A DNA stretch of 64,000 nucleotides. Source: Agarivorans albus. Lineage in GTDB: Bacteria > Pseudomonadota > Gammaproteobacteria > Enterobacterales > Celerinatantimonadaceae. Within the stretch, counting starts at the first letter, position 1. Every line of letters begins with the position of its first letter. A program made the translations under genes and the position numbers. This document shows, piece after piece, positions 12,334-51,088 of this stretch. The notes under the pieces were generated by a model. The model worked only from the letters and a program-made list of their open reading frames with translations. It had not been told where the DNA came from and ran no database searches. The DNA lies in contig NZ_AP023032.1 in NCBI RefSeq assembly GCF_019670105.1, forward strand, positions 3,094,972 through 3,158,971. The letters run 5' to 3'.

Positions 12334-12368
12334 AGCCCGGAAAAATCTAGTGATTAAATTGCTGCTTG

Positions 12369-13512: not shown

Positions 13513-14197
13513 AATCTATCCCGGCTAACAAATACAAAGCACAGGCGCGTTGTTTAAACTGCGGTTGCTTCATTGCTTGGCTTAAGCCTTTATGCATAAA
13601 GGTGTGCTGTTCAATTTTAAGTAAGGCTTTAGCCACCGTTGTACGCTGCTCAATACTTAGCTCGGGCCACAAGCTTAAACCAATCTCTACATAGGCAAAT
13701 AAAGTAACGGGGGCGTTCTCGCCCACCTTTGCGGCCAACTCCAAATACGCCATCGCCTCTTGGCTACTGGCTTGGCGATAAAGGGCATTTTTAGCTAAAT
13801 CAACATAGGTATTTGGCCAAGTTGGCCTAAGTTCAGCAGAGCGTAAATAGAACTGCTGAGCTTTAAGCAAGTTCTGCTTTTTTAACAAGGACTTATTCGC
13901 AGTATCGGGGCTAATAACTAAGCTGTAAAAGTTACTCCACTCTACTTGTTTGGCAGCCAATACCTGATAATGAGGGTGATTAGCCTGCCAAGCGAGCATG
14001 TCACGAGTGACGTGTTCGGCTACCTCTAAGTTAGTTTGCGTGAGTTGCTGATTAAGATCTTTCTGCCAACGTTGATGCCAAGCGCCAACCGCATAGCTGT
14101 TTGCATTGGCTAGACCATATTGCACTGCAACAACAGCCACCCATAGAGCGGTGCCTAATAGCCCAAATAAAAACAACTTATGCTTAACTTGGTTCAT
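13490..14197 (-). CDS. VpsP-like polysaccharide biosynthesis protein
   Basis: About 235 residues with one N-terminal membrane anchor (about residues 6-26) and a helical periplasmic region with a TPR-like segment (LLKAQQFYLRSAELRPTWPNTYVDLAKN). This resembles the VpsP family found next to Wzc in Vibrio-type exopolysaccharide operons. The molecular function is not known. The GGAGGG ribosome site lies 8 nt before the ATG at 14197, so I trim seven residues from the longest frame. It sits between the glycosyltransferase and VanZ-like genes. Confidence 0.7.
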   Translation of the reverse strand: MNQVKHKLFLFGLLGTALWVAVVAVQYGLANANSYAVGAWHQRWQKDLNQQLTQTNLEVAEHVTRDMLAWQANHPHYQVLAAKQVEWSNFYSLVISPDTANKSLLKKQNLLKAQQFYLRSAELRPTWPNTYVDLAKNALYRQASSQEAMAYLELAAKVGENAPVTLFAYVEIGLSLWPELSIEQRTTVAKALLKIEQHTFMHKGLSQAMKQPQFKQRACALYLLAGIDYVACANT

Positions 14198-14229
14198 CAA
14201 TGATGCCCTCCCGCACATATATACATAGG

Positions 14230-15297
14230 CTAATCGGCCGCTGCATATAGATCGGTTAATTGGGTATTTAAACGTTTTGCCTCAAAGCGGCTTACAAATA
14301 CTTCACGACATTGTTGAGACATCGCGCTAAGCGTTGTTCTATCAAGTTGACCAATGACTTTGGCAAGTGCATTACTGTTACTGTTTTCAAACACGTAACC
14401 GGTGCTTCCCTCGGCAACTAGACTTGGCAAAGCCCCTGCATCACTAACAACAACCGGCAAACCTTGGCGGAACGCTTCTATCACCACCAAACCAAAACCT
14501 TCCCAGCGCGAAGGCACAACTAGCGCATCAACACTGGCATACAGCTCACGAAGTTGCTCTTGGCTACACCAACCATGTTGAATCACTCGACAATCGGAAA
14601 CATTAAGCTGTTGTTTCGACACAACACTCGCGCCAGCAATGTGCAGCTCTACTTCGCTATCTACTTGGCGAATGGCTTCTATTAGCAGATCTACGCCTTT
14701 TTGTTTGTCTAAACGCCCTACAAACAATAGCTTTAACATGCCTTGGTTTTCGCTTCGCTGTATGTCTTGTTCCAAATCATCTAAAGCGTTCTCAAACACC
14801 ACCATTTTATGCTCAGGAATCTTTTGCTGGCGGGCACTTTCAAAATCATGATGAGAAATATTAATCACCGAGCTAACTCGGTAGGCCAATACCTTTTCGA
14901 TTTGTGAGAACACCTTCGCTTTAATGCCGCTGTAACCATCAAAGCACCAGCCATGGGAACAATACACCACCTTCCGCTGACTACGCTTGGTTATTAAACC
15001 TGGTATGCGACAAACCACACCCGCAAAAGTACTGTGGATATGAATCACGTCGGGGTCAAAATCGATAACCGCTTGCTTAAACAACTTAGCTAAACTTGCA
15101 CACGAACCTAGACTGCGGCTTGGCCGATCAAAGCAGCGATAATAGGCCTTTAAGGGCGCGTCTTCCGCTACGTGTTGCTGCGGTGCTAGCACCAAAATAT
15201 TGTCGGTGCCGTAGCACTCTGCTTGGTAAGGGATAATAGTGTTTAAGTAAGTTTCTACGCCGCCTACCAAGGTTTCGGTTACATGTAATATCTTCAT
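14230..15297 (-). CDS. Glycosyltransferase family 4
   Basis: GT-B fold glycosyltransferase of 355 residues. The N-terminal domain begins MKILHVTETLVGGVETYLN, with the acceptor-side glycine motif. The C-terminal domain has LLFVGRLDKQKGVDLLIEAI and the donor-binding E-x7-E block in VPSRWEGFGLVVIEAFRQGLPVV. It adds one sugar from a nucleotide-sugar donor during assembly of the repeat unit on the lipid carrier in the cytoplasm. The sugar cannot be named. It overlaps the pyruvyl-transferase gene by 4 bp. Confidence 0.9.
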   Translation of the reverse strand: MKILHVTETLVGGVETYLNTIIPYQAECYGTDNILVLAPQQHVAEDAPLKAYYRCFDRPSRSLGSCASLAKLFKQAVIDFDPDVIHIHSTFAGVVCRIPGLITKRSQRKVVYCSHGWCFDGYSGIKAKVFSQIEKVLAYRVSSVINISHHDFESARQQKIPEHKMVVFENALDDLEQDIQRSENQGMLKLLFVGRLDKQKGVDLLIEAIRQVDSEVELHIAGASVVSKQQLNVSDCRVIQHGWCSQEQLRELYASVDALVVPSRWEGFGLVVIEAFRQGLPVVVSDAGALPSLVAEGSTGYVFENSNSNALAKVIGQLDRTTLSAMSQQCREVFVSRFEAKRLNTQLTDLYAAAD

Positions 15298-16508
15298 GAT
15301 AACTGGCTCTCCGCTTGATACTGCTCTAAGCGTTGCAGCATATCTCTAAACTCTACATCCCAAGCATTTACTACCTTGTGACGAGCTTGAACAATTTGTT
15401 GCTGCAGCTCGGGCATATCGGCCAATTGAATGGTTTCGCTGTGTTTCTGCATGCCTTCGCGGCTAAAATCAAACAACATTGAAGCAGGTAGCTTGACCGC
15501 TTCAACAAAGGCGCTCACTTTGCTGTCCCAGCTCATTACGGTAAACGGTACCGAAAAAGAAAAGGCACTAATTGCCGAGTGAAGCCTAGTAGCAAATACA
15601 CATTGCGCCTGACTAACTACTTTAACCAAATCATCAACTTGCTCTACGCTTACTACCTTTACATCGGGCAAATTACTGGCAATATCTTGCATATATTGCT
15701 GGTCTTCTTGGGCACCATTGGTATAAAGCACCGGTAACAAACCAGCAGCCTTAACCTTAGCCACACACTGGCTGATCCATTGCTGGTAGTCTTGCTCGTT
15801 AAAACTCACATCGTTGTCAGAATTAACCATTAATACCACCGGATTCACGATGTTAATGGCGGCGTATGCTTGTTTACTAAGTTCAGAGTGTGGCGCTTCA
15901 CTGTAACTAAGGTTCAAGTTCACAGCGGGGTCTATGCTCACCACCACCTTGTCGGCAATCTGCGCGCCAAACAAGTAAGCGATATTGTCTTTACTGGCAG
16001 CATCGCGTACCGAAATATACAAACACTGCTTAGCCGCAAACAGTCGCTTGAACAGCCAGCGCCCTGGCCCAGACATCCGCTTAGCCACCCCAACATACAC
16101 TACCGCGTAGTTGGTATTAGCGAAGTAGCAAAACAGTGATAGAAAATAAAGCTTAAGCGGGAAGTTAAGATAAACATCGCTAATTAGGTTACCGCCGCCC
16201 ATCAACACCACATCAGCGGCCTTCACTTTACTCATCCAATTACGGTAGTTTTTAACCGCCACCAGCATACTATTGAGAGGGATAAATAGCTGGCGTACCC
16301 ATTCAAAACGGCTCTTCAAGATCTTGTCTTTAATTGCATTTTGCTGAGCACTGCGCTCAAAGTTATGCCTTCCGGCAATATCTAAGGCCTCACTGGAGAT
16401 ATCATAATTTTCTAGCTTCCATGCCAGCGAATTATGAATTAATGCATCACCAAAATTATCACTATAAGGAACTGCAGCAATAAGGTAATGGGTGTCCTTT
16501 TTAGTCAT
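15294..16508 (-). CDS. Polysaccharide pyruvyl transferase family protein
   Basis: Protein of 404 residues of the CsaB/WcaK type, which attaches a ketal-linked pyruvate to a sugar of an exopolysaccharide repeat unit from phosphoenolpyruvate. Visible family features are VVLMGGGNLISDVYLN (the GGGN loop), SVRDAASKDNI, and the late CVFATRLHSAISAFSFSVPF block with the conserved R-L-H-S/A. It overlaps both neighbours by a few bases. A pyruvylated polymer would be acidic; that is inferred. Confidence 0.85.
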   Translation of the reverse strand: MTKKDTHYLIAAVPYSDNFGDALIHNSLAWKLENYDISSEALDIAGRHNFERSAQQNAIKDKILKSRFEWVRQLFIPLNSMLVAVKNYRNWMSKVKAADVVLMGGGNLISDVYLNFPLKLYFLSLFCYFANTNYAVVYVGVAKRMSGPGRWLFKRLFAAKQCLYISVRDAASKDNIAYLFGAQIADKVVVSIDPAVNLNLSYSEAPHSELSKQAYAAINIVNPVVLMVNSDNDVSFNEQDYQQWISQCVAKVKAAGLLPVLYTNGAQEDQQYMQDIASNLPDVKVVSVEQVDDLVKVVSQAQCVFATRLHSAISAFSFSVPFTVMSWDSKVSAFVEAVKLPASMLFDFSREGMQKHSETIQLADMPELQQQIVQARHKVVNAWDVEFRDMLQRLEQYQAESQLS

Positions 16509-17559
16509 CTAAGACTCCTTGTCGAGAACTACCAAAAATAAGTGAATAAGCGGGGAGTAAATAAATAGCTGCCGACAAAATATGCCTAAAGTAACTTCCC
16601 TGATCTGGCTCAAATAGCAGCAGTACAAACATATGAGAGCAAAACAATGTAAGTAACAAGTCTCCCTGTTTACGCTTAATCATTTTTCCGCAAATCATCA
16701 AAACACCCACGCTAAACAACAGCAGTAACAGTTGATTAAGCCCTTGGGCAAAAATCAGCGGCAAGCTCAGCTGCAACAAGGCCCAGCCAAAATTAATAAT
16801 AAAGGGCAAGCCACGTGCTACATCCACTAAATTGTCGAAAGCAGTTACGTTAAAACTACCCTCTAATTTGGCGTAGTTATTGGAAATATCTCGCTGGCCT
16901 TGAGACATTTGATAAAAGGCATCAGGTAACAAAAAGGCTAAGCAAACAAAAAAGGCAAGAAAATACCAAGCAGGTTTAAAGCTTGCGAGTTTAAATGCAG
17001 TTCGATTAAGGCTATTACGCATAGGAAAGCCTTTATCACTAAAATACTGCATGACATAGCCAGCGAGAAATACCCCTAGAATAAGAAAATAGTAGGAACG
17101 AACTTGCAGGGCGTAACTCACGTAAAGCACCACAACGCTAAAAATAAAGGCTTTACGGCTAAAATAAGTGGAGTAAAACACCAGCAGACAAAGAGCCATT
17201 ACTATGGTTTCTTTAGCTGGCCAAATAACATTAAGCAGCATGCTAGGTAGGGTAAACAAACTCACTACCAGTAAATCTTTAAGAGTTACCACATATTTGG
17301 AAATAACCAAAAGCCACAAAAAACCAATGGTAGCCGTGCTCAGCACTGCGCTTTCGCGTCCTAAAAAATAAAGTAATTCACGGGTGGCTAGGAAGGAGCC
17401 ATCTAGTTCAAAAAAAACAAAGCGCCCTTCTATCTTCATGGCATCGTAGCCCCATTTCCAGGGCAAAAAGTCTTTACCAACGGTCATCAGCAATAACAGC
17501 ATCAGCGACCAAAATAGTAGGTAACAAACACCGAGTTTAGTGCGTTTAAACTCGACCAT
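16501..17559 (-). CDS. Putative Wzy-type polysaccharide polymerase
   Basis: Very hydrophobic protein of about 352 residues with around ten membrane segments and no soluble domain. It has low sequence signature, as is usual for Wzy. Its position between the flippase and pyruvyl-transferase genes is the main evidence. The start at ATG 17559 is preferred because GGTGG lies just upstream, whereas the longer frame starts at the GTG within that site. The gene overlaps the wzx-like gene. The other candidate polymerase in the operon is the Wzy_C protein at its end. Confidence 0.65.
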   Translation of the reverse strand: MVEFKRTKLGVCYLLFWSLMLLLLMTVGKDFLPWKWGYDAMKIEGRFVFFELDGSFLATRELLYFLGRESAVLSTATIGFLWLLVISKYVVTLKDLLVVSLFTLPSMLLNVIWPAKETIVMALCLLVFYSTYFSRKAFIFSVVVLYVSYALQVRSYYFLILGVFLAGYVMQYFSDKGFPMRNSLNRTAFKLASFKPAWYFLAFFVCLAFLLPDAFYQMSQGQRDISNNYAKLEGSFNVTAFDNLVDVARGLPFIINFGWALLQLSLPLIFAQGLNQLLLLLFSVGVLMICGKMIKRKQGDLLLTLFCSHMFVLLLFEPDQGSYFRHILSAAIYLLPAYSLIFGSSRQGVLDD

Positions 17560-18781
17560 AGTGCCCACCTAAAGACTGACTATCGGCATAAATTAGAGAG
17601 ACTAGCCAAGTAACTAGGTAACACGCAGCTAAACCAAGAGCGCCTGTTGATAAGGACAAAGCAAGGCCGGAGCAAAGCACACAAACCAACACCGTTAGCA
17701 CACAGTTGGTATATACCTGCTTGTCGGCCGAAAATTTCACGAAGATGTGGTAAACCGGACCAAAATACAAACGAACGCAGGCCGCTAAAGCAAACAGCGA
17801 CCAAATTACCAAGGTGTTGGAATCTAAATCTGCAACAACATACACCCCAACAACGGCCAGTGAAGAAACAATTAAGCCAGCCACGCTTAAGGGCACGCCG
17901 TCTTTACGGACTTTGAGATAGCTTTGTTTGATATCGTTTGAGGCTAAAATCTCCGGTACTTGCACGCTGTTGCGAATCGCCAAGATAAATACAAACAACT
18001 GGAAGATCCGCCCCCCCCATGCAATAACGCCGGTATCGTATTCGCTAAGGGTATAACCACTAATTAAGATGATGCCCCAAAACAATACGTATTCACTCAA
18101 AGTAAAAGCTAAAAACTTAGAGTCTTGCTTTAAACTTTGGCTAAGTTTTATGCCTTCGCTTTCATCTGATAGCTTAAAACCCTGCAGCAGCTTTTTATTA
18201 CCAAACAGGCTAAATAAACAAAAGTAAGCGAGTAAACATGCGCTTAACACCACAAATACATCGTTAGTATTGCCCGACAAGGCCAGCAACAAGAAAATCA
18301 GCGAGCTGAAGACAAAAAACACACCCGCTTCAAACAAATAAGATCGGTAAAACTCTTTGATCACTCGGTGAGATAGAGACACCATTTGAATAATCGCAAA
18401 GCCAACAATATACAAAAAACAAAATACGATTATCTCAATGCTACTAAAGCTTAAGGGCACGACCACAATGGCTAGGCTTAAACTTAAAATAAGTGACAAG
18501 CGACACTTTTCAAACAATACGCGCGCCGCTTTATCTGTTTCACCTTGGCTTGATAAGTCGAAATAGCGACCAAAAAATGAATATTCAGATCCGTAACGGC
18601 CAATCACCAAAATTAAGTTGGCAATTGAAATAGCAAAGGAAACCTGACCAAAACTGTCCATGCCATAAAGCCAAGTGATTACCGACGAAAACAAAATTAA
18701 ACCGGTCGCACTAAAAGCTCGCAGCAAGGTAATGCTGCCAAAGCGCTTAACTAAAGACTCTATGCGCTTTAGCCCACTCAT
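17546..18781 (-). CDS. Wzx-like lipid-linked oligosaccharide flippase
   Basis: Membrane protein of 411 residues with about twelve hydrophobic helices, of the MOP/polysaccharide-transporter type. The N-terminal FGSITLLRAFSATGLILFSS and LYGMDSFGQVSFAISIANLI segments resemble Wzx. It would move the undecaprenyl-linked repeat unit to the outer face of the inner membrane. The start codon overlaps the wzc stop (ATGA). Each Wzx is specific for its polymer, so sequence identity to named members is expected to be low. Confidence 0.82.
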   Translation of the reverse strand: MSGLKRIESLVKRFGSITLLRAFSATGLILFSSVITWLYGMDSFGQVSFAISIANLILVIGRYGSEYSFFGRYFDLSSQGETDKAARVLFEKCRLSLILSLSLAIVVVPLSFSSIEIIVFCFLYIVGFAIIQMVSLSHRVIKEFYRSYLFEAGVFFVFSSLIFLLLALSGNTNDVFVVLSACLLAYFCLFSLFGNKKLLQGFKLSDESEGIKLSQSLKQDSKFLAFTLSEYVLFWGIILISGYTLSEYDTGVIAWGGRIFQLFVFILAIRNSVQVPEILASNDIKQSYLKVRKDGVPLSVAGLIVSSLAVVGVYVVADLDSNTLVIWSLFALAACVRLYFGPVYHIFVKFSADKQVYTNCVLTVLVCVLCSGLALSLSTGALGLAACYLVTWLVSLIYADSQSLGGHYGRV

Positions 18782-20997
18782 GCGCTTACTCCGTATTCAC
18801 GGTAGTAACCATAACGTGTTTCGTTTTTGGCGTTTACTCGGTTCAAGATAACCCCATCAACCACTACTTTGTGATTGATCATCTGCTGCAAGGTATGTTC
18901 AATTTGATTCACCTTGGTGCGCCCAGCATTTACAACCACAATGCTTGATTTGGTGATTTGACCAATAATCAAGGCATCACTTACCGCCGCAATTGGCGGA
19001 GTATCGATAATAATCTTGTCGTAATGCTCGCTGAGCTCTTCGATAAGTGCTTTAAATTTCGAACCCGCCAATAGCTCTTGAGGGTTAGCGGTTTGCATTC
19101 CCGCAGGCAATAAATCAAGGCCAGAGCGCTCGTGATGAACCACGCAATCATCTAGTTCTGCATCCATCACTAACAGGTTACTTAAGCCTGGGTGAGCACG
19201 GTTAAGATTAAATCGTTCGCCCATCGAGGGTTTACGTAAGTCACCGTCAATCAATAGGGTTTTTTCCATACCAGCCATCGCGATAGCTAAATTTAAGGCG
19301 GTGGTGGTTTTGCCTTCATTGGGTACCGATGAGGTCACCGACAAAAGCTTACGCTGTTGGCTCATCATGTTCAGCATTACTGAAGTACGAATACTGCGTA
19401 CCGCTTCACTAAAGTTGAGCTGTTTCTCATCAAAGAACTGCTCTAGCGGTAAATTTTCTTTATTAAAGCGAGAGCGTTTAACCAGAGGAATAACCCCAAG
19501 CGGAGTAAGACGAAGCTTGTCTTCAATGCCGCTGGCGCTTTCAATGGTGTTGTTAAGTGATTGACTAAGCAGCGCCAGCACTATGGCAAGGGCCAAGCCG
19601 AAGGCTGCAGCCAGCACTATGATGATGCCTTTCTTTGGTTTAGCGGGAAATAATGGCGTAACAGCCCTGTCGGCAAAGCGCGCTACTGCAGCTTGAAAGT
19701 CACTAGTAGCATTGGTTTCTTTTTGGCGAGTAACAAACAAATCATAGAGGTTTTGGTTACTGTCAACTTCACGCTTCAAGGCATCGTAAGTTGCTCGCTT
19801 AAGCGCAATATCTTGAAACTCGGCCTTTTTGTTTTCCATCTCGGTGCGGATCGCGTTCTCTTGAGCACGAGCACTACGCAACTCTTTTTCAACACCAGAA
19901 GCTAGCACTCTAAGCAGCACTTCGGAGCGTTCTTTCACCGAAGCCAACTGAGCTTGAGCACGAATCATCTTGTCGTGTTTAGGGCCATAGCGTTTGCTAA
20001 GCTCAGAAACCAATCGCTCTGCTTCAATTTGCGCTAACCGTACATCACGTAGCTGCGGATGGTTAGAGATTGCCGTTACCGAAGAGAGCTCTGAGATAGC
20101 GGTATTTTTATTATCTTGCAGTAAGTAGTAAATAGACTCCGAAGCGGTGCGGCGATCTTGCGCATCGGCTAAACGGCGGCTTAAGTTGCCCAGCTCTGAG
20201 CTAGCTAAACTGTCAATACCGCTTACATCTACTAGTTGCTCACGCTGCAAAAAATCACTCAAACGGCTCTGTGATTCTATTACCGCTGCTTGTAATACGC
20301 CGATCCGGTCAGCTAACCAGTTGGTGGCTTCTTGATTAGCAATAATGCGACTTTCACGGTTAGAGTTGATGTAAGTCTCCCCTACCGCGTTGGCAATTTT
20401 GGCGGCTAGTTTAGGATCCCTAGAGTCAAAACTAATATTTACTAACTGGGTCTTTTTAACCGGATTAATGTGTAGATTGCGCTGGAAGGTTTTCATTACT
20501 TTTTGGCGCGCAATTTCTTGCTGCTGCTCTAAATCTGGAAGTTCTTCTTCAGGCATAAAGCTTTGTATAAGAGGCACCGAGCGCAACAAACTTTTAAGGC
20601 CAGCGGCATTAAAGCCCTTACCATCGTTTGCGCCGTTAAACTCAGGGTTGTCATAGAGCTGAAATTCGTCAATCACTCGTTGAGCAATGCTTCGCGATTT
20701 AAGTAACTCGAACTGCGTGAGGTAATACTCCTGCTTCGAGGTGTCGATGCCAATCACATCATCAATCGACACCGCTTTACGCTGCTCAGCTTCAATCAGT
20801 AATACCGCAGTTGCCTGATAGGTTGGCTTAATCGCAAAAACCAGCAATATGGCCAGTAAAACACTGATAAATGTAAAACCCAAAATCATCAGCCATCGCG
20901 ACTTCAAAATCGACAAATATTGCATGATGTTAATAAACTCATCATCTGCATTATTGCCGTTGCGCATTAGAGCTGCATTATTCACTGTTGTTGTCAT
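18778..20997 (-). CDS. wzc: Polysaccharide co-polymerase / tyrosine autokinase (Wzc family)
   Basis: Fusion of 739 residues: N-terminal Wzz chain-length domain with a membrane helix near 35-56, a long periplasmic coiled region, a second helix near 475-495, and a cytoplasmic BY-kinase. Walker A is in SVPNEGKTTTALNLA (about 556), Walker A' in LLIDGDLRKPS (about 578), and Walker B in IIIDTPP (about 658). The last 15 residues hold a Tyr cluster (RYGYYREYG), the usual autophosphorylation site. It controls polymer length and export with Wza. The partner phosphatase is the PHP enzyme in the same operon. Confidence 0.95.
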   Translation of the reverse strand: MTTTVNNAALMRNGNNADDEFINIMQYLSILKSRWLMILGFTFISVLLAILLVFAIKPTYQATAVLLIEAEQRKAVSIDDVIGIDTSKQEYYLTQFELLKSRSIAQRVIDEFQLYDNPEFNGANDGKGFNAAGLKSLLRSVPLIQSFMPEEELPDLEQQQEIARQKVMKTFQRNLHINPVKKTQLVNISFDSRDPKLAAKIANAVGETYINSNRESRIIANQEATNWLADRIGVLQAAVIESQSRLSDFLQREQLVDVSGIDSLASSELGNLSRRLADAQDRRTASESIYYLLQDNKNTAISELSSVTAISNHPQLRDVRLAQIEAERLVSELSKRYGPKHDKMIRAQAQLASVKERSEVLLRVLASGVEKELRSARAQENAIRTEMENKKAEFQDIALKRATYDALKREVDSNQNLYDLFVTRQKETNATSDFQAAVARFADRAVTPLFPAKPKKGIIIVLAAAFGLALAIVLALLSQSLNNTIESASGIEDKLRLTPLGVIPLVKRSRFNKENLPLEQFFDEKQLNFSEAVRSIRTSVMLNMMSQQRKLLSVTSSVPNEGKTTTALNLAIAMAGMEKTLLIDGDLRKPSMGERFNLNRAHPGLSNLLVMDAELDDCVVHHERSGLDLLPAGMQTANPQELLAGSKFKALIEELSEHYDKIIIDTPPIAAVSDALIIGQITKSSIVVVNAGRTKVNQIEHTLQQMINHKVVVDGVILNRVNAKNETRYGYYREYGVSA

Positions 20998-21071
20998 TAA
21001 CTAAACACTTCCCTGTTAGCAAACTTACGGAGTATTACTGTTGGCACCCTTGCCGTAAAAGAAGCTAGGCC

Positions 21072-21647
21072 TTAAAAGAAACTGGCCTTAACCACAATAA
21101 TGTCTCCCGGAGCGATGCGGTGCTTTAACGCAGCTTTCACTAAGTCATTAGTGCCATTTCCGGGAGTAATATTGATATTTGTTTTCGACGCTCGCTCTGT
21201 AAAGCCACCCGCTAAAGCTATCGCTTTTTCAACCGTGAGACCGGGTTGGTAAGCGTAACCACCAGGGTGTTCTACCTCACCGTTAATAAAGATCTGTCGG
21301 TAGCCAATAATGTTTACCGCTACCTTAGGGTTAATCAGGTAATCACCACGCAAACCCTGCTCGATGTTATCTCTAAGTTGCTGGGCAGTAAGGTTATTAA
21401 CTGGAATTCGCCCCAAGTAGGGATAGTCGATTTTGCCACTATTGGTCACTAGCAACTCCATCGACAAATCACTCTCGCCGTATACCACTATTTGGATGCG
21501 GTCACCTGCGCCTAAGCGGTAGCTTTGCTCTAGGTCATTGGCCAGAGAATCAGCGCTAAATCCGCCCCACATCAACACCGTTATTAGCAAATACCAGGCG
21601 TGTTTGGTGTTACACAATCTAGCCAAGAGAGAACCATCCCTATTCAT
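21072..21647 (-). CDS. Short polysaccharide export protein (Wza/VpsN type)
   Basis: 191 residues with a signal-like N-terminal helix (AWYLLITVLMWGGFSADSLAN), a Poly_export domain (YRLGAGDRIQIVVYGESDLSMELLV to IDYPYLGRIPV) and an SLBB-type domain (IFINGEVEHPGGYAYQPGLTVEKAIALAGGFTERAS). About half the length of E. coli Wza. It has no lipobox and no C-terminal helix region for an outer-membrane barrel, so it probably forms only the periplasmic part of the export channel. AGGAG lies 5 nt before the ATG at 21647. Confidence 0.85.
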   Translation of the reverse strand: MNRDGSLLARLCNTKHAWYLLITVLMWGGFSADSLANDLEQSYRLGAGDRIQIVVYGESDLSMELLVTNSGKIDYPYLGRIPVNNLTAQQLRDNIEQGLRGDYLINPKVAVNIIGYRQIFINGEVEHPGGYAYQPGLTVEKAIALAGGFTERASKTNINITPGNGTNDLVKAALKHRIAPGDIIVVKASFF

Positions 21648-21670
21648 CACAACTCCTTGAACAGCTTTAT

Positions 21671-23080
21671 TTAGTAGGCAGTTTTACCTACAAATCCTTT
21701 AAAGATAGTGAGGAATACAATTTTGATATCCATCCAAAGCGTCCACACACGAATGTACTCAAGATCGTATTGCACCCGCTTTTCCATTTTTTCTAAGGTG
21801 TCGGTTTCACCACGGTAACCATTGATTTGCGCCCAGCCGGTAATACCAGGCTTCACTTTATGACGCAGCATGTAACGGTTAACGATTTGACGATATTCTT
21901 CGTTGTGAGATACCGCATGAGGACGCGGCCCAACAATAGACATGCTGCCCATCAACACATTGAAGAATTGAGGTAGTTCATCTAAAGAAGTACGGCGAAT
22001 AAAAGCACCAAACTTGGTGACTCGGGGATCATTTTTAGTTGCTTGTTTCACAACAGCACCATTATCTTGGGTGCTCATTGAGCGAAACTTCCAAACACGG
22101 ATTTTCTTACCGTCTAGGCCATAGCGATCTTGCTTAAACAAGATGGGGCCAGGAGATGAGCGCTTAACACCAATAGCCACCGCCAACAAAATCGGACTAA
22201 TCAACATGATGATGATCGACGCCAATACAATATCTTGAATGCGTTTCACCAACATACTGCCGCCACGGAATGGGCTATCAAATACACTTACGGTTTGAAT
22301 ATCCCCCAGCGAACTCCATCGTGAATGCAGTAAGTTGTAGGTAAAGAAATCTGGCACGATAAAAGTGGTTGTGGTGGTATCGGAAAGTTGTTGTAAATAA
22401 CCAGTAATGCGGTCTTTGGCATGCATAGGCAACGCAATATACACGTGGTCGACTTCACCGCGTTTAGCCATTTCTAGCGCGGTATCAACCTTAGCTACAG
22501 GCCCTGTATAGCCACTACTTTCTAAACGAGAAACATCCCTATCATCAAAAAAGCCAACAAATTGAATACCTAGCTCTTCTGAGTTTTCGAAGGTTTCCTT
22601 GAGTTGCACACCGTTTTGCGACACCCCGATAATGGCTGCGCGGCGAGTGTTATAACCAAAGCGACGCATTACCGCTAAACTCTCACGAAATACTAGGCGC
22701 CAAGCTATCAGCAACATTGGCGTGGCCACTACCCATGAACCCACCACCACTCGCGAGTAGGTAGCCGAGATTTTTAGGAAATAATTAACCGCGAACAACA
22801 AGGCAATGCTGATAATCCAAACCCATAGGTTAACCATGGCTTGTTCCTTGAGAGAAGAAACCCGCCACGAACGGTATAAGTTGAAGGATTCCGCTACGAC
22901 CAAGTAGATGGCTGAGAGGCCAACACCCATTAGCTGAAAGGCCAAATCGAAGGAACCATTTTTAAGCCAAGACAAGCCAGCTAAAACGGCAATAATGATA
23001 AAAACATCTGAAATTCGGTAGACAACAGCGAGTTCAAATTCGTTAGAACGAACTACGCCATTTTGTTTCTGCATATCCAT
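21671..23080 (-). CDS. wcaJ: Undecaprenyl-phosphate glucose phosphotransferase (WcaJ family)
   Basis: Initiates repeat-unit assembly by moving hexose-1-phosphate, probably glucose-1-P, from the UDP-sugar to undecaprenyl phosphate. At 469 residues it has four to five N-terminal helices, a Rossmann-like CoA-binding domain (RAAIIGVSQNGVQL), one further helix near 285-305, and the catalytic bacterial-transferase domain. That domain includes KRSSPGPILFKQDRYGLDGK, VWKFRSM, RRTSLDELPQFFNVL and the Asp/Glu-Arg-Pro block SIVGPRPHA. It is the first gene of the long minus-strand operon, with AGGGG before the ATG. Confidence 0.93.
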   Translation of the reverse strand: MDMQKQNGVVRSNEFELAVVYRISDVFIIIAVLAGLSWLKNGSFDLAFQLMGVGLSAIYLVVAESFNLYRSWRVSSLKEQAMVNLWVWIISIALLFAVNYFLKISATYSRVVVGSWVVATPMLLIAWRLVFRESLAVMRRFGYNTRRAAIIGVSQNGVQLKETFENSEELGIQFVGFFDDRDVSRLESSGYTGPVAKVDTALEMAKRGEVDHVYIALPMHAKDRITGYLQQLSDTTTTTFIVPDFFTYNLLHSRWSSLGDIQTVSVFDSPFRGGSMLVKRIQDIVLASIIIMLISPILLAVAIGVKRSSPGPILFKQDRYGLDGKKIRVWKFRSMSTQDNGAVVKQATKNDPRVTKFGAFIRRTSLDELPQFFNVLMGSMSIVGPRPHAVSHNEEYRQIVNRYMLRHKVKPGITGWAQINGYRGETDTLEKMEKRVQYDLEYIRVWTLWMDIKIVFLTIFKGFVGKTAY

Positions 23081-23576: not shown

Positions 23577-23667
23577 TGGCGGAGGAGGAGAGATTTGAAC
23601 TCTCGAAGGGCTATTAACCCTTGCCGGTTTTCAAGACCGGTGCATTCGACCACTCTGCCACCCCTCC
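23577..23667 (-). tRNA. tRNA-Ser (UGA)
   Basis: 91-nt tRNA with encoded CCA. Acceptor GGAGGGG pairs with CTCCTCC. The anticodon stem-loop CCGGT-CTTGAAA-ACCGG gives anticodon TGA. The long variable arm (AAGGGTTAATAGCCCTT) is the serine class-II hallmark. Identical to the second copy 53 bp upstream. Confidence 0.97.
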
Positions 23668-23720: not shown

Positions 23721-23811
23721 TGGCGGAGGAGGAGAGATTTGAACTCTCGAAGGGCTATTAACCCTTGCCGGTTTTCAAGACCGGTGCATTCGACCACTCT
23801 GCCACCCCTCC
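23721..23811 (-). tRNA. tRNA-Ser (UGA), second copy
   Basis: Identical 91-nt copy of the neighbouring tRNA-Ser: same TGA anticodon, long variable arm and encoded CCA. It is first in the pair relative to the promoter at 23824-23852. Confidence 0.97.
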
Positions 23812-23994: not shown

Positions 23995-24987
23995 TTACTC
24001 ACCTAAAAAAGGATATCTCACACCTATTTGAGAGCGAATTTCATCCATAATCTGCATGGTTTCAATACTCTTTTGCCAGCTCATCACTTCACTTTGTAAT
24101 TTACCGGCAGCAACACAACTCATCACTTCTTCTATTTGGTACTCAAAGCCCGATGCACGAAATGGAAAGTCTTCAACTATATCTGGCTCACCATGCACAC
24201 TCAGACAAGCTTGAGTCCCAACCCAGAACATACTCGGTACGCGGATATGCCCATTTGAACCAAAAATGGTGAAGCTGTTTTCTGTATTAGCCAAAAAGTT
24301 ACAGGTAAATTGGCTAGCGCAATGGCCATAATTCATAACCACACTGCTGCGCTCGTCTACACCGGTGCTACCAACAAGGCCATCAGCTACAATTTTATTA
24401 GGTTTGCTTTGGGTAACAAACTGAGACATAGATACGTTATACACTCCCATGTCTAATAGACTACCACCGGCTAACTCGCGGTTAAGCAAACGATCATCTT
24501 CATCACGTGGGATGTTAAAACCAAAACTGGAGCTTATAAGTTTAATCTCACCAATTTTTTGCTGCTCAAGCCAAGATTTTACCTGTTGCCATGCAGGCTG
24601 AAAGCGAGTCCATAATGCTTCCATTAAGAACACATTATTAGCCTTTGCTAAGGCAACTAGTTCTTTAGTTTGCGCCGCGTTTACAGTGAGTGGTTTTTCA
24701 CACAATACAGGCTTGCCTGCTTCTAGGCACATTTTAATACTGTCGAAATGAAACCGATGGGGGTTGGCAATATAGATAGCATCAACCTTGGGATCGTTTG
24801 CTAACTGTTGATAATCATCTAGCGCTAATTGGCCATCAAACTCATCAACAAAGTCCTGCGCACGTTGCAGATTAGAACTAGCAACAGCATATAAAGTAGC
24901 TTGAGGAATAACCGCTAAGGCTTCAGCAAAGTTACGCGCAATGCGACCAGGAGCAATGACTCCCCAATTAAAAGGATGAATAGACAT
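23995..24987 (-). CDS. Gfo/Idh/MocA-family oxidoreductase
   Basis: NAD(P)-dependent dehydrogenase of 330 residues. The N-terminal Rossmann domain begins FNWGVIAPGRIARNFAEAL, a glycine-rich loop with Pro for the second Gly. The family EKP motif appears in GKPVLCEKPLTVNAAQT, and the C-terminal substrate domain contains GGSLLDMGVYNV with the usual conserved Asp and nearby residues. It resembles the dihydrodiol-dehydrogenase-like branch. The substrate, probably a sugar or cyclitol, cannot be assigned. It stands alone. Confidence 0.88.
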   Translation of the reverse strand: MSIHPFNWGVIAPGRIARNFAEALAVIPQATLYAVASSNLQRAQDFVDEFDGQLALDDYQQLANDPKVDAIYIANPHRFHFDSIKMCLEAGKPVLCEKPLTVNAAQTKELVALAKANNVFLMEALWTRFQPAWQQVKSWLEQQKIGEIKLISSSFGFNIPRDEDDRLLNRELAGGSLLDMGVYNVSMSQFVTQSKPNKIVADGLVGSTGVDERSSVVMNYGHCASQFTCNFLANTENSFTIFGSNGHIRVPSMFWVGTQACLSVHGEPDIVEDFPFRASGFEYQIEEVMSCVAAGKLQSEVMSWQKSIETMQIMDEIRSQIGVRYPFLGE

Positions 24988-25326
24988 TTGGGCTCTCTTA
25001 GCTAAACAATTAATAAAACAACACTTATCTTAACTCGATTTTAGAGGCTTACTAGTAATCATAAGCAGTCTAAACACTCCAAATAGCAAACTGTGAAGTA
25101 CCTCTTGTGCCATACTTTAGTGATGAAATTTTTCGCCATAAATCCAACAAAAAACATAACGCCAATCTAGACCTAAACCTCAGTTCAAAGCAAACGCATC
25201 ACATAATTCCAATCAATTCAAATTAATAACTTAATTATCACTTACCCTTGTAAATTTGACTTTTTATTTGCATAGTTGTGTTTCTCTTCACTAGAGAACG
25301 AGACATCATTTAAAAATGGAATTATT
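24988..25326. other. Divergent intergenic region
   Basis: A/T-rich region between the oxidoreductase and the MptE/Maf-like gene. A possible plus-strand promoter is TTGTAA (25248-25253), 17 bp, CATAGT (25271-25276). If real, it puts the transcription start beyond the most upstream TTG codon and supports the later start I use for the downstream gene. Nothing else is visible. Confidence 0.4.
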
Positions 25327-27219
25327 TTGCAAAAACAATCGCCATTATTTGCTAAAAACATTCGGACAATCCGCAGTATCTACCCAGCGCTTTCCATTAA
25401 GCTTGATGAATTAGCTGGGCAAGAGAATGGCCTTAAACTAAGCCCAAATAACGATTTTTGCATCAATGGTGAACCATTTTATAAAGGTGATGGTTTAAAC
25501 GCTTGTAGGCAACAAGTTAAGCAGTTTCTGTCATCTCCCAACCATTATTCCATGTCATTTCAAGACTCACCCGCCAGTTCATTCATTCACCAACAAGCCA
25601 TAAATCAACTAAATTCAGTAGCAATAGAACTTGGACGAAAAAAAGGTAAACCGTACTCCAGTACTTTGATCGCCTTAGGCAGCGGTATTGGTTATTACCT
25701 CAACATTCTTTGCAATGAATTCAAGCTAAAAGACATCATTCTAATAGAGCCCAGCGACCAGCAACTATTGGCGTTGTGTCACCACTGTGACCTTTCCAAA
25801 CTGGTAGAACATTGTTCCAACTTAGGAGGCGAGTTTTACATATTTCAACCTAAGTCAGGTTTAGCTTTTAACAAAGCAATGCAACAAGTATTTGAACGAA
25901 GCGGTTGGGGAGTATTAGCTGAGATGCTGATATATCGCCATTACAATACCCAATTTTTCGATGAGATAGTGGATAATTTTGTTTCATATAGACTCGCCTG
26001 GCTATCTGCTTGGGGGCATTTCGATGATGAACTCATCGGCTTGAACCATAGTATTGACAATGCTAAGCGGCATTTATTCAAAATTGATGGTGAAAAAGCT
26101 TTAAACCAGGTAACCGAGAGCTATCCAACTCTTGTTGTGGGTAATGGGCCATCTTTAGATAAAGATATCGACTACATTTCAAATCATCAAAATAAGTTCA
26201 TCATAGTAAGCTGCGGTACAGCTCTTGCGGCGTTAATAAAGGCGGGTATCAAACCAGATTTCCATGCTGAAATGGAAAGAAGTACATTCACGGCAAAAGT
26301 TCAAGCCCCTTTGTTTTCTAATGACATAACCCGCAATACCACCTTATTAGCGTTAAACACTGTTTCACCAGAGATAACAAACCGTTTCGAAAACAGCCTG
26401 ATTTTTCTAAAAAAGCTAGATGTTGGATCAGAAGCAATAACAAACGCTACAACTCACCGCCCTTCTATCTTGTCACACTGTAACCCCACTGTAACAAACT
26501 TCGCCTTAGCTGCTGTTGCAAATATAGGACTCAGAAACATAATTTTAGTCGGGTGCGATTATGGATACCTGAATGCAGAAGAACACCACTCAAAACATTC
26601 TGAATACTTCAAAACTAGTGGGCCTCTATCAAAAGCAAAGTATAACTCTACACTTTCGGTAGATAGTGTTTTTGGAGATAAAATTTATACTAACAGAGTT
26701 TTTAATCAGGCTCGTAAAGCTATAGAGAACTTAGCCAAGGAACTCTCAAGCCATCAAGTAACAAATTCGTCTAGGGGCGCAAAAATTGAAGATGTTCCTT
26801 ATATCCCTTTAAAGTCTATAGGTTTAAAACCTTACGATAAACCAATAATCAATAAACAAGCTTTAAGTAAACATAGGGCTTCTTATATAAAGCTTGATAT
26901 AAGAAGCATCGCCCTATTTCTTGACTCATTAGCAGAAGTGCCAAATCAGCTATTGAATAAAGAGACTAATGCCAAAACAGACTATTGTTCTATCTCTAAG
27001 TATTTAAAACAAATAGGCTGCAAGTATCCTACCTCTTCTCAAGTGATTTTCTCAGGGATCCTTAAGTACATCGAGGTTACGTCTACTGGACACCTAGCAA
27101 GAATCCCGTCAAATAAGCAGCTTGATTACACCATTCAAGCTCAATCATGCCTTAAAACAATGTTCGTTGAAGCTCAGCATCGTCTAATGACAACAAAGGA
27201 GAAATTAGATGAAATTTAG
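25327..27219 (+). CDS. MptE/Maf-like (DUF115) putative protein glycosyltransferase
   Basis: Large cytosolic protein of about 630 residues. It shows the DUF115/6-hydroxymethylpterin pyrophosphokinase MptE-like core also found in motility-accessory-factor (Maf) flagellin glycosyltransferases: TLVVGNGPSLDKDIDYI, CGTALAALIKAGIKPDFHAEMER and NIILVGCDYGY. An N-terminal segment with LIALGSGIGYYL resembles the extra Maf domain. There is no ATG near the N-terminus. TTG at 25327 has GGA 6 nt upstream; TTG at 25276 in the same frame is possible but overlaps a candidate -10. The gene is visibly A/T-richer than its neighbours. It overlaps the next gene by 11 bp, so the pair is coupled, and no flagellar genes are nearby. 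Confidence 0.75.
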   Translation: MQKQSPLFAKNIRTIRSIYPALSIKLDELAGQENGLKLSPNNDFCINGEPFYKGDGLNACRQQVKQFLSSPNHYSMSFQDSPASSFIHQQAINQLNSVAIELGRKKGKPYSSTLIALGSGIGYYLNILCNEFKLKDIILIEPSDQQLLALCHHCDLSKLVEHCSNLGGEFYIFQPKSGLAFNKAMQQVFERSGWGVLAEMLIYRHYNTQFFDEIVDNFVSYRLAWLSAWGHFDDELIGLNHSIDNAKRHLFKIDGEKALNQVTESYPTLVVGNGPSLDKDIDYISNHQNKFIIVSCGTALAALIKAGIKPDFHAEMERSTFTAKVQAPLFSNDITRNTTLLALNTVSPEITNRFENSLIFLKKLDVGSEAITNATTHRPSILSHCNPTVTNFALAAVANIGLRNIILVGCDYGYLNAEEHHSKHSEYFKTSGPLSKAKYNSTLSVDSVFGDKIYTNRVFNQARKAIENLAKELSSHQVTNSSRGAKIEDVPYIPLKSIGLKPYDKPIINKQALSKHRASYIKLDIRSIALFLDSLAEVPNQLLNKETNAKTDYCSISKYLKQIGCKYPTSSQVIFSGILKYIEVTSTGHLARIPSNKQLDYTIQAQSCLKTMFVEAQHRLMTTKEKLDEI

Positions 27220-28174
27220 CACTAAGTCGGTACTACCTACCGTCAGTCTAGCTATGTTTACCGCGACAGGAGTAGCAAATGCAGTAGATATCGCCAGCAA
27301 CACCTACACCGCTATTAGTTCAATTAACCGTTCGGAGCCTCTTCAAAGCAGTATGGTAGAGCGGACGAGTAATTCAGACTCGAGTTTTACATCAAACGAT
27401 AGCTATGGTTCAGGTGATAGCTATGGCTCAGGTGATAGCTATGGCTCAGGTGATAGCTATGGCTCAGGTGATAGCTATGGCTCAGGTGACAGCTATGGCT
27501 CAGGTGACAGCTATGGCTCAGGCGACAGCTTTGGCTCAGGCGATAGCTTTGACTCAGGCGACAGCTTTGGCTCAGGCGATAGCTTTGACTCAGGCGACAG
27601 CTTTGACTCAGGCGATAGCTTTGGCTCAGGCGACAGCTTTGGCTCAGGCGACAGCTTTGGCTCAGGCGACAGCTTTGGCTCAGGCGATAGCTTTGGCTCA
27701 GGCGATAGCTTTGGATCGGGAGCAGATACTTGCTATTCCATATACGACCAATGTGGCGATGGGAAGCAAATTAGGCACGGTGTCATATACACATACCGAG
27801 ACTTTATTCGAAATGGTTCAAATGACTTCAGCAGCATTGCTCAAGATGTATTTTGTTTCAAACAGCAAAATGGCGTAATTATTGCTCAAAGAACGGAAGA
27901 CTACGGCTATCAACAAACTCCGACTATCATCGTAGGAAAGGTTAATAGTAAGGGGAGAATAAAGCTTAAACTTCATACCGATATATCGGTTAGCGGTGAT
28001 TACCCTGCTAGCATCAACATCAAACCGAAAGTAAATCAAACAGATGGCTCGCAAAGCGGCTCTTGGCAAAATGAAGTAGCTAGTGGTGGTGTTAGAGCAT
28101 ATGTATATTACGACGAAGATGCTACAAACCGGTATTATTCTAATGGTTGTATAGAACTACTCGGTTGGAATTAA
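27209..28174 (+). CDS. Secreted Ser/Asp/Gly tandem-repeat protein
   Basis: No family recognised. Protein of 321 residues with a clear signal peptide (MKFSTKSVLPTVSLAMFTATGVANA), a spacer, 18 hexapeptide repeats at about residues 64-171, and a C-terminal domain of about 150 residues with four Cys (TCYS, DQC, VFCF, NGC) that looks beta-rich. Repeats 1-7 read DSYGSG and repeats 8-18 DSFGSG, with Asp replacing Gly in repeats 9, 11 and 12. A good AAAGGAG ribosome site lies within the end of the upstream gene. Its Ser-rich repeats make it a plausible substrate of that MptE/Maf-like enzyme; this is inference. Confidence 0.8.
   Translation: MKFSTKSVLPTVSLAMFTATGVANAVDIASNTYTAISSINRSEPLQSSMVERTSNSDSSFTSNDSYGSGDSYGSGDSYGSGDSYGSGDSYGSGDSYGSGDSYGSGDSFGSGDSFDSGDSFGSGDSFDSGDSFDSGDSFGSGDSFGSGDSFGSGDSFGSGDSFGSGDSFGSGADTCYSIYDQCGDGKQIRHGVIYTYRDFIRNGSNDFSSIAQDVFCFKQQNGVIIAQRTEDYGYQQTPTIIVGKVNSKGRIKLKLHTDISVSGDYPASINIKPKVNQTDGSQSGSWQNEVASGGVRAYVYYDEDATNRYYSNGCIELLGWN
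27398..27721 (+). repeat. 18 x 18-bp coding tandem repeat
   Basis: Eighteen contiguous units of exactly 18 bp (324 bp), consensus GATAGCTTTGGCTCAGGC. Units differ only at a few sites (GAT/GAC, TAT/TTT, GGC/GAC, GGT/GGC). No unit breaks the frame. Variants are clustered along the array, suggesting growth by slippage or unequal recombination. Confidence 0.97.
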
Positions 28175-28254
28175 AAGTACACTCAGTACGTAATGATCCC
28201 CTATGCAGCTAAAACTGCTAAGAGTAAAAGAATTTACTCATTCAATTAAGGACA

Positions 28255-28289
28255 AAGCAATAAAGGTTTACCGCAAACCTTTATTGCTT
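28255..28289. terminator. 15-bp perfect inverted repeat between convergent genes
   Basis: AAGCAATAAAGGTTT and its exact reverse complement flank a 5-nt loop, between the repeat-protein gene and the convergent TRAP permease gene. The stem is strong but lacks a clean T-tract on either strand. A two-way terminator is the simplest reading. Confidence 0.6.
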
Positions 28290-28317
28290 CAATGACTAAA
28301 CCTCAAATAATAAGCAT

Positions 28318-30402
28318 TTAAGATAAACGCCACTCACTTGCTCGCTTACCGCCACGTCCAATATAAAACACCGCTGCCAATAAGCTAACTAAGGCCGCAA
28401 TCTGCCAAGCCATCGCGATGGGGCTTAACAATACAAGCGCTATTACCGCTAGGGCTGCGCGCTCCCAATGCTTTAGCTGACGTTTTTGCCAACCTTGCAT
28501 AACCAAAGTAAAGGCATATAAACCCGGTAAAGCAAAAATAAACACTTGAAAAGCAGCTAGCCAGTCTCCTTGAGCAAGCGGCGTATAAGCAAACAATATC
28601 GGGATGATGTACAGGCCTTTGGCAATCTTCCATGATGTAAAGCCCGTTGCCATTGGAGGAGATTTAGCGATCGCAGCAGCAGTAAAGGTACACAAACAAA
28701 CTGGCGGGGTAACGTTACTGTCTTGAGAGAGCCAGAAAATGACTAAATGTGCCGCTAATAGCAACATAGATAACTGATTTTCATCAAGTAGCATTGGCCG
28801 CAGTAAGGCCATCATTTCATCAGGCATATCGTTTATTAATGCTTGGGCTTCGGCAACACTCATCGCACCTTGCTCTGGACTAACCCCAACCAACATTAGA
28901 ATAGCTTGCACATCTGCACTCAGAGCACCTGAGCTTAAAGCGTTCACTAGCTCTACATTAGCCATTAATTGTAATAACGCCGGAGCAGACAAAGTAGCCA
29001 ACACAATATAAGAAGCGGTTACTGGCAGCCCCATGCCTAGCACTAAAGATGCTACAGCAACCAGCAGCAGCGCCACCAGCAAACTCCCACCAGACCATTC
29101 GGTAATCATCAAGGAAAAAGTATTGCCGATACCAGCAGTGGCAATCACATTAACAACCAAGCCTACTGAACATAACAGTACTGCGGTTACCACCATATTG
29201 CGCGAACCCAGCGCGAAGGCATCAGCAATTGCCGCTAGCCCCATTTTGTTTGGGGTAAACCATGAGCTCACAATCACCGCGATAATTGCAATAACAGCTG
29301 CGTAAGTGGGTGTATAGCCCATTACCAGTAATACAATCAACAAGGTAACCGGCACAATAAACGACAAGCCCTCACGCATCACCATAGGTAGCAGAGGAGG
29401 AGCTTGTTCCATAGTTCGAGTTAACCCCGCTTTATAAGATTCTGTTCTCACATAAAAAACCAGCGATGCAAAATACAAAATAGCCGGAAGAATACTCACC
29501 ATCACAATGGTGCTATAAGGAATTTGTGTGTAACTAGCCATGACAAAAGCCCCTGCCCCCATTATTGGCGGCACAATTTGCCCACCAGTAGAAGCCGATG
29601 CTTCTACCGCAGCAGCAAACCGCGGGCTAAAGCCTGCGTTTTTCATCAAGGGAATAGTCACAACGCCAGTAGACGCAGTGTTGGCAACAGCGCTGCCAGA
29701 AATAGTGCCAGTAAGTCCAGATGCAATTATGGCCACTATTCCTGGCCCACCAACCAAGCGGCTAGCAATACTTTTAGACAAATGAATAACAAAATCACCC
29801 GCGCCAGAGCGCAGCAAAAAAGCGCCGAACAGGATAAACATGAAGACAAAACTTGCAGAAATTCGCGCGATATTGCCAAAAATAGCATCATCGCCATAAA
29901 TGCTTCTAAACAGCAATGTCTCTAAGCTCAGTCCCTTGAACTGAAAGACACCCGGGACAAAATTCCCCCACCAGGCGAGATAGGAGATGGCAGTTACAAT
30001 TAAGATAGGAATCACCCAGCCAGTGGCTCGACGGGTCATATCAATTGCCCCCAAAATCACCAACGAGCCACATAACCAATCTAAGGGGACTAAGCGCACA
30101 CCTCGTTCATAAATGAGGTCTTCCGCGAACAATAGATATATCGCCGAAAAGGCAATAGCCAGCACCCACAATTTGTCCAGAATGGCCAAATGGCGCTGCA
30201 AACTTAATGGTTTTAATAAGCCACACAACAAAATAAAACCAGCAAAATGAAGAATGTTTTGCTGTAGCACGGCAATATCCGCAAAAATATTAAAGTAGAC
30301 ATGCGCCAAACTAATAATAATGCCTAAAACGTATATTAGAGGTACAGCACGAGTATCTTCAATTTCTTGGCGAATACTGTCAGGTACGGCATTCCATTGC
30401 AT
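28318..30402 (-). CDS. TRAP transporter, fused 4TM/12TM permease
   Basis: Fused DctQ-DctM inner-membrane permease of 694 residues for a sodium-driven TRAP importer of the TAXI type. The DctM part shows GLTGTISGSAVANTASTGVVTIPLMKNAGF and ASASTGGQIVPPIMGAGAFVMASYT, the conserved substrate-path loops. It works with the receptor encoded immediately upstream, separated by a 58-bp gap containing a hairpin. Substrates of TAXI transporters are mostly dicarboxylates or glutamate-like compounds; here it is unknown. Confidence 0.93.
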   Translation of the reverse strand: MQWNAVPDSIRQEIEDTRAVPLIYVLGIIISLAHVYFNIFADIAVLQQNILHFAGFILLCGLLKPLSLQRHLAILDKLWVLAIAFSAIYLLFAEDLIYERGVRLVPLDWLCGSLVILGAIDMTRRATGWVIPILIVTAISYLAWWGNFVPGVFQFKGLSLETLLFRSIYGDDAIFGNIARISASFVFMFILFGAFLLRSGAGDFVIHLSKSIASRLVGGPGIVAIIASGLTGTISGSAVANTASTGVVTIPLMKNAGFSPRFAAAVEASASTGGQIVPPIMGAGAFVMASYTQIPYSTIVMVSILPAILYFASLVFYVRTESYKAGLTRTMEQAPPLLPMVMREGLSFIVPVTLLIVLLVMGYTPTYAAVIAIIAVIVSSWFTPNKMGLAAIADAFALGSRNMVVTAVLLCSVGLVVNVIATAGIGNTFSLMITEWSGGSLLVALLLVAVASLVLGMGLPVTASYIVLATLSAPALLQLMANVELVNALSSGALSADVQAILMLVGVSPEQGAMSVAEAQALINDMPDEMMALLRPMLLDENQLSMLLLAAHLVIFWLSQDSNVTPPVCLCTFTAAAIAKSPPMATGFTSWKIAKGLYIIPILFAYTPLAQGDWLAAFQVFIFALPGLYAFTLVMQGWQKRQLKHWERAALAVIALVLLSPIAMAWQIAALVSLLAAVFYIGRGGKRASEWRLS

Positions 30403-50891: not shown

Positions 50892-50968
50892 GGCTATGTA
50901 GCTCAGCTGGTTAGAGCACAGCACTCATAATGCTGGGGTCGCAGGTTCAAGTCCCGCCATAGCCACCA
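50892..50968 (+). tRNA. tRNA-Met (CAU), elongator
   Basis: 77 nt with encoded CCA. Anticodon arm CAGCA-CTCATAA-TGCTG gives CAT. The body closely follows E. coli elongator tRNA-Met. Identical copy at 51541. Confidence 0.96.
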
Positions 50969-51003
50969 TTACTGTATACTGCTAAAGTTACAGTAAGAAA
51001 TTT

Positions 51004-51088
51004 GCGGAAGTGGCGGAATTGGTAGACGCGCTAGATTTAGGTTCTAGTATCGCAAGGTGTGAGAGTTCAAGTCTCTCCTTCCGCACCA
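51004..51088 (+). tRNA. tRNA-Leu (UAG)
   Basis: 85 nt with encoded CCA and a long variable arm. Anticodon arm CTAGA-TTTAGGT-TCTAG gives TAG. Identical copy at 51640. Confidence 0.96.

Follow-up and report, generated by a model that had tools for sequence, protein, structure and literature searches.

The closest described systems are the Maf flagellin glycosyltransferases, among them Maf1 of Aeromonas caviae and CbMaf of Clostridium botulinum. Maf1 acts in the cytoplasm on flagellin, which it binds directly, and its authors' model has cytidine monophosphate (CMP)-pseudaminic acid as the donor (PMC4065374). CbMaf recognizes Ser or Thr on a structural scaffold and leaves non-cognate flagellin unmodified (PMC11339370), and no sequon is known for the acceptor choice of Mafs (PMC12645811). 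Non-flagellin substrates of a Maf have been raised as future work (PMC11339370), and glycosylated proteins beyond flagellins have been reported in Helicobacter pylori (PMC3184161); these and the other PMC entries cited below are drawn on in part. Within the open-access literature searched, to that same extent, no Maf with a proven non-flagellin substrate was found. Here we describe a two-gene cassette of Agarivorans albus that encodes a Maf-family enzyme and a serine-rich repeat protein. It lies in the window, the whole stretch of 64,000 nucleotides that was analysed (G000:C1:3094972-3158971, from a single-contig genome of 4.79 Mb). Gene order, domain content and a second copy in a related genus suggest, with a probability of roughly 0.6, that this Maf has been repurposed from flagellin to O-glycosylate a dedicated, Sec-exported repeat protein.

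By its sequence, the cassette enzyme is a member of the Maf family. Its gene (25327..27219, + strand) starts with TTG and encodes 630 amino acids; an alternative TTG start at 25276, the one given in the mechanical list of open reading frames (ORFs), would give 647 amino acids, and no ribosome-binding site is visible before it. Pfam places Maf_flag10_N at residues 7-219 (E = 3.2e-27; 95.9 bits, cut-off 23.5) and MptE-like at residues 256-416 (E = 8.2e-32; 110.8 bits, cut-off 34.6). The Maf of the second copy, in Aliagarivorans marinus, scores 122.7 and 92.7 bits for these two families, over the same cut-offs. When a two-row profile of both Mafs was searched against the PDB, one distinct sequence was matched at E <=0.01, 5mu5_A, over profile positions 7-618 of 639 (E = 1.6e-40); its PDB title is 'Uncharacterized protein', and we take it to be the Magnetospirillum Maf. 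One public Maf crystal structure has been described, from Magnetospirillum magneticum (PMC11339370). The 12 columns that are 100% conserved in 71 other Mafs are all kept in both cassette Mafs, the GPS motif included, and of the 43 columns conserved at >=90%, 37 are kept in the window Maf and 39 in the A. marinus Maf. Neither the cassette Maf (69.2 bits, cut-off 670) nor the host's flagellar Maf (68.1 bits over an 808-amino-acid part of its frame) reaches the NCBIfam family FlagModPseD (NF050051). Domains, the 5MU5 alignment and the invariant columns thus agree with the DUF115/MptE-like, Maf-type identity given in the preliminary description of this DNA.

The second gene encodes the proposed acceptor, a serine-rich repeat protein of 321 amino acids (27209..28174, + strand, ATG start), and overlaps maf by 11 bp; both ORFs and the overlap are present as first described. 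At this junction (27195..27219, + strand) a Shine-Dalgarno-like AAAGGAG lies within the end of maf, followed by the ATG at 27209 and the maf stop codon at 27217-27219. The first 25 residues (27209..27283, + strand) resemble a signal peptide, as proposed earlier, that ends in ANA and has no lipobox Cys; they are well conserved in A. marinus. The middle of the protein consists of 18 hexapeptide repeats, DS[YF][GD]S plus Gly, encoded by 18-bp units (27398..27721, + strand), for which Tandem Repeats Finder gave a period of 18, 17.7 copies, 94% matches and a score of 461 (the runner-up of its four rows scores 65). Seven units are DSY and 11 are DSF, with Gly before 17 and Asn before one. The preliminary count of 18 Gly-Asp-Ser-Tyr/Phe repeats therefore holds, except that one unit opens with Asn. 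The C-terminal domain (27722..28174, + strand) has 150 amino acids, includes Cys residues common to the A. marinus copy, and matched no Pfam family at E 1 in either species; an autotransporter barrel was likewise not recognized at the C-terminus of either protein (Pfam, E 1). Five PDB rows were returned for this domain, all of them acetylcholine receptor delta subunits at E 0.41-0.84, and were judged to be chance matches. Nor is the protein a member of the NCBIfam serine-rich family NF033849 (16.7 bits, cut-off 650). When searched against the host genome, the repeat matched once outside its own gene, at E 0.38, and there is hence no second obvious target.

The pair recurs in A. marinus (DSM 23064; genome G011) with the same gene order and the same 11-bp overlap. 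The A. marinus Maf also has 630 amino acids and is 45% identical to the window Maf; its partner has 17 repeats, shares the signal-peptide region, and is 53% identical in the C-terminal domain. The repeats themselves are mostly DSYGSS or DSYGSC in A. marinus (17 units), compared with DS[YF][GD]SG in the window (18 units). Asp1, Ser2 and Ser5 are nevertheless unchanged in all 35 units, and synonymous codons vary. The bases of the junction are nearly identical in the two genomes, with a GTG start for the A. marinus repeat gene. The best-conserved non-repeat DNA of the cassette in blastn is window 27180-27288, the end of maf and the start of the signal peptide (74% over 109 bp), compared with 66-71% in the other non-repeat pieces. 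This conservation exceeds what the 11-bp overlap requires and would be compatible with coupling or an RNA element, both of which are possible.

The two copies occupy unrelated sites. In the window, the cassette (approximate edges 24973..28331, set where blastn similarity to the closest relative stops) lies between a Gfo/Idh-type oxidoreductase gene and a gene of the DctM-family tripartite ATP-independent periplasmic (TRAP) transporters, with both edges in the last or first codons of these flanking genes. All six other genomes of the genus that were compared have an empty site, with 180-351 bp between the oxidoreductase and TRAP-transporter flanks, as against 3.36-3.51 kb between the ends of the corresponding similarities in the window. 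Neither a close Maf nor the C-terminal domain was found in these six genomes. The A. marinus copy is located between a methyltransferase gene, presumably ogt-like, and a gene for a 269-amino-acid protein, and the one Aliagarivorans relative examined, G009, has an empty site there (flanks 198 bp apart versus 3,449 bp). Insertion at two unrelated sites, each with an empty counterpart in relatives, indicates that the two genes travel as a unit, and the presence of these same two genes at each site is good evidence that they work together. These comparisons identify the pair as a two-gene cassette that moves horizontally, and the empty sites in 6/6 congeners support the acquisition suggested in the preliminary description. 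The tRNA-Ser genes that had been offered as a further sign of it (23577-23667 and 23721-23811) are no such sign, because relatives without the cassette also have them (two genes in five of six, one in the sixth). Integration at these genes was rejected on the same ground and for their position past the oxidoreductase gene. No terminal repeats stood out as transposon ends, and the non-coding flanks of the two copies had no mutual match at E 1. Among the relatives, the stretch L053 (G005) is the one with a single tRNA-Ser gene, against two in the other five and in the window, and its TRAP transporter match carries an in-frame TGA.

The pair is rare: of 394 genomes sampled from the order, two were found to contain the C-terminal domain. 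In a sample of the class it was matched in 4 of 369 genomes at E <=0.01, one of which is the window's own; the three others (E 0.0014-0.0075, two of them containing stops) are about what chance would give over 369 genomes and were set aside. Maf matches at E 1e-10 are present in 26 of 60 related genomes, and of these matches only the A. marinus Maf, besides the window's own, is close. The two-row Maf profile at E 1e-60 found matches in 3 of 12 genomes of the family, namely the two cassette Mafs and a generic Maf frame of 971 amino acids. A scan of genome contigs with two short peptide patterns of the C-terminal domain, which reaches close relatives only and may omit the window's own record, gave 82 stretches, one of which encodes a relative, that of A. 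marinus. Searches with the Maf found no relative in viral contigs and none in phages, and two plasmid records, which cover 67% and 69% of the query with 19-22% identity; plasmids gave no match to the C-terminal domain. In both copies (2/2, n only 2) the close Maf is accompanied by the repeat protein. The search for a recurring secreted neighbor thus answers in favor of the pairing proposed earlier, and a close Maf without the repeat protein, named at the time as the finding that would speak against it, was not encountered.

Maf_flag10_N is present in 112 of 394 genomes of the order, and 60 other Maf stretches, hand-picked from 54 of these 112 genomes, served as a control. All 60 contain a Maf (69 in total), and 46 contain a flagellin, in most cases at a distance of 2-3 kb. 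In none of them is a neighbor within three genes of the Maf both repetitive and Ser-rich, a search that used simple gene calls and which a partner with weaker repeats could escape. Fourteen neighbors within this distance are Ser-rich and non-repetitive: by Pfam nine are FliD, one FlgD, one CheR and one Ppx/GppA, and the remaining two are short frames with no Pfam family. Two control stretches (L136 and L141) do have repeat ORFs at this distance from a Maf; as these are Ala/Lys-rich and lack a signal-peptide-like start, they were rejected as comparable partners. These ORFs (L136 12110-14050 and L141 5754-8012, both in family f3) encode proteins with RTRRTKAQIEAD units and Gly/Gln/Tyr-rich tails. 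Three genomes of the same family (G221, G241 and G211) have 5-7 Maf_flag10_N matches each, some as divergent neighboring pairs and several with no flagellin in the stretch retrieved.

In a rapid maximum-likelihood analysis of 73 Mafs, rooted at the midpoint, with 15 rows of unusual composition and the Shimodaira-Hasegawa-like approximate likelihood ratio test (SH-aLRT) as its only support measure, the two cassette Mafs group together (SH-aLRT 100), and the stem of their clade measures 1.83 changes per column. The clade is nested in a larger one of 11 rows whose nine other Mafs come from other families and each have a flagellin in their stretch. The cassette Maf has a mean identity to these nine of 35% in the MptE-like domain and 12% in the C-terminal 140 residues; among themselves the nine are 28% identical in the latter. 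A C-terminal tetratricopeptide repeat domain has been reported as giving acceptor specificity in another Maf (Unay et al. 2024, told in PMC13317340). The host's own Maf, a 965-amino-acid frame within a few kb of two flagellins, stands apart from the cassette Mafs in the tree. In this bacterial family, flagellar Mafs have long frames of about 950-1000 amino acids (G000:C1:2892-2895 kb; G004; G009); in G004 and G009 one frame holds two Maf_flag10_N matches, and G000 has three matches in all, of which two are listed. Mafs usually, if not universally, lie near a flagellar or flagellin locus, and neither cassette copy does. No flagellin was found by tblastn in the 64-kb window, nor in the 16-19 kb fetched around the A. 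marinus copy. Pfam searches of seven neighboring proteins in the window assigned a family to five, none of them flagellar, and left two without one. The earlier statement that the window has no flagellar gene is upheld for flagellin and for these five neighbors; other flagellar genes were not scanned for window-wide.

Several observations weigh against a repurposed Maf. A flagellin is also missing from 14 of the 60 control stretches, 13 of them in family f3, and its absence nearby is by itself weak evidence; a Maf outside the flagellar cluster is not unusual as such (PMC13317340). The two cassette Mafs are only 27% identical to each other in the C-terminal region, compared with 41-55% elsewhere. 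This offers no support for a common acceptor surface in that part, although flagellar Mafs vary there as well (28%). N448, which is 99% conserved in other Mafs, is Val in both. A low-complexity repeat would seem unlike the structural scaffold read by CbMaf, and no report of a Maf product exported by Sec was found in the open-access literature searched. Precedents for cytoplasmic glycosylation before Sec export are AIDA-I, TibA and HMW1. AlphaFold2 models from the two-row alignments were too poor to use (mean predicted local distance difference test score 37.0 for the Maf and 30.1 for the repeat protein), and retention of the invariant columns would still be compatible with an enzyme acting on flagellin. 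Finally, the window and A. marinus copies, both in one bacterial family, are the only two known, and the linkage therefore rests on one comparison.

The recurrence of the pair in a related genus suggests an enzyme re-targeted to a new protein, for which the following course can be proposed. Both copies show the overlap and the Shine-Dalgarno-like sequence, by which the Maf and the repeat protein would be made together through translational coupling. In the cytoplasm, the Maf would bind the repeat protein and use a CMP-activated nonulosonic acid to glycosylate the invariant serines of DSxxS. The modified protein would then be exported by Sec via its signal peptide, which would leave a strongly acidic, sugar-coated stalk displaying the C-terminal domain beyond the inner membrane, with a probable role in adhesion or matrix. 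The cassette has no genes for sugar synthesis and must borrow its donor; CMP-pseudaminic acid supplied by the flagellar region of the host is a plausible one. It had been called a stand-alone system, a description that holds only in part, given this need for a host donor. In the host genome PseB, PseC, PseF, PseH and PseI score above cut-off and PseG just below (147.0 versus 153.55). The donor would most likely be the CMP-pseudaminic acid made by these genes, a claim held with somewhat less confidence than that on the substrate.

Whether this donor and these serines are the right ones bears on a variant of the same explanation, with which its odds overlap. The Maf would modify the repeat protein with another donor (Kdo, a legionaminic-type or another CMP sugar), or would modify the linker or C-terminal domain instead of the repeats. 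CMP-Kdo is made by Gram-negative bacteria in general, and the replacement of N448 in both cassette Mafs could point the same way, as does the acceptance of Neu5Ac and Kdo by CbMaf (PMC11339370). The Pse genes of the host argue against another donor, and the repeats are the Ser-dense part of the protein, with two serines unchanged in 35/35 units, which argues against another site; we regard this variant as unlikely. Less likely again is that the cassette Maf is an accessory flagellin glycosyltransferase that changes the flagellar glycan or its sites, the downstream protein being a hitchhiker or an independent secreted protein. The characterized Mafs in the literature consulted act on flagellin, genomes with several Mafs exist, and the fully invariant Maf columns are kept. 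Against such a role are the lack of a flagellin in the window and in the 16-19 kb fetched around the A. marinus copy, the joint movement of the pair to two unrelated sites with the same overlap, a host that has another Maf near its flagellins, and the long stem branch of the cassette Mafs. A Maf without catalysis, serving as a cytoplasmic chaperone before Sec export for an aggregation-prone protein whose Ser/Gly-Tyr/Phe repeat looks self-associating, is very improbable given the 12/12 invariant columns with GPS motif in both cassette Mafs, even if Aeromonas Maf1 binds flagellin without sugar (PMC4065374).

Other features of the locus concern its composition and surroundings. A perfect 15-bp inverted repeat with a 5-nt loop (28255..28289) is a candidate terminator downstream of the pair; it has no clear T run on the + strand and is absent from the output of a terminator scan. 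A sigma-70 scan of 24900-28400 gave three promoter-like sites compared with 7.9 in shuffles, and no promoter is therefore claimed for the cassette. The Maf frame has a guanine-plus-cytosine (GC) fraction of 0.382, the lowest among the 43 window ORFs of >=200 amino acids (window 0.444), and the repeat-protein gene has 0.458 overall and 0.400 in its C-terminal part. The A/T-richness once ascribed to the pair is thus a property of the Maf frame and not of the whole repeat gene. A mostly minus-strand run of genes at 9827-23080 resembles an exopolysaccharide cluster and ends about 2.2 kb before the start of maf; it includes a sugar transferase (PF02397) at 21671-23080, its remaining genes being judged by appearance. 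At 50892-51837 a tRNA array, Met-Leu-Gln-Gln-Met-Leu-Gln, resembles a partial tandem duplication.

If the Maf does have its own repetitive, sequence-simple acceptor, acceptor choice would become directly testable in Escherichia coli, the pair could be used as a tool to decorate repeat tags with sialic-acid-like sugars, and a flagellar modification system would be a source of new surface glycoproteins. A more specific picture, on which we would place slightly less than even odds, is that of the first Maf with a dedicated non-flagellin acceptor. It would be carried on a mobile cassette whose possibly self-associating, Ser/Tyr-rich stalk receives its coat of pseudaminic acid in the cytoplasm and is then exported by Sec, altering the surface of hosts that already make CMP-pseudaminic acid.

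Compared with known systems, the cassette enzyme shares with the Maf flagellin glycosyltransferases (A. caviae Maf1, C. botulinum CbMaf and 5MU5) the same domain order, a near full-length alignment to 5MU5 and 12/12 invariant columns. It differs from the flagellar Mafs in having no nearby flagellin partner and in its C-terminal 140 residues (12% versus 28% identity). The Aah/AIDA-I and TibC/TibA systems of E. coli have their own enzyme family and an autotransporter barrel, and act in the cytoplasm before Sec export. As in the cassette, the glycosyltransferase gene in these systems directly adjoins that of its target (PMC3794999). Unlike the cassette, whose partner has no recognized autotransporter barrel, they place heptose on autotransporters, TibA being one that carries it (PMC6090259). 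In staphylococci, the genes of the glycosyltransferases SdgA and SdgB lie beside those of the Sdr surface proteins with Ser-Asp repeats, an arrangement like that of the cassette, and the repeat serines of the Sdr proteins are the glycosylation target (PMC3794999). SdgA and SdgB are closest to each other, then to TarM, and use UDP-N-acetylglucosamine (PMC3794999), whereas the cassette has a Maf in a Gram-negative host. The cassette also differs from the Gram-positive serine-rich repeat glycoproteins, which have GtfA/GtfB-type enzymes and accessory Sec genes alongside; its adjacent enzyme is a Maf, and accessory Sec genes, not sought genome-wide, are absent from the two-gene insert. By analogy, the cassette would follow the logic of Aah/AIDA-I, TibC/TibA or SdgB/Sdr with another family of enzyme, so that it would work like these systems without being a member of any of them.

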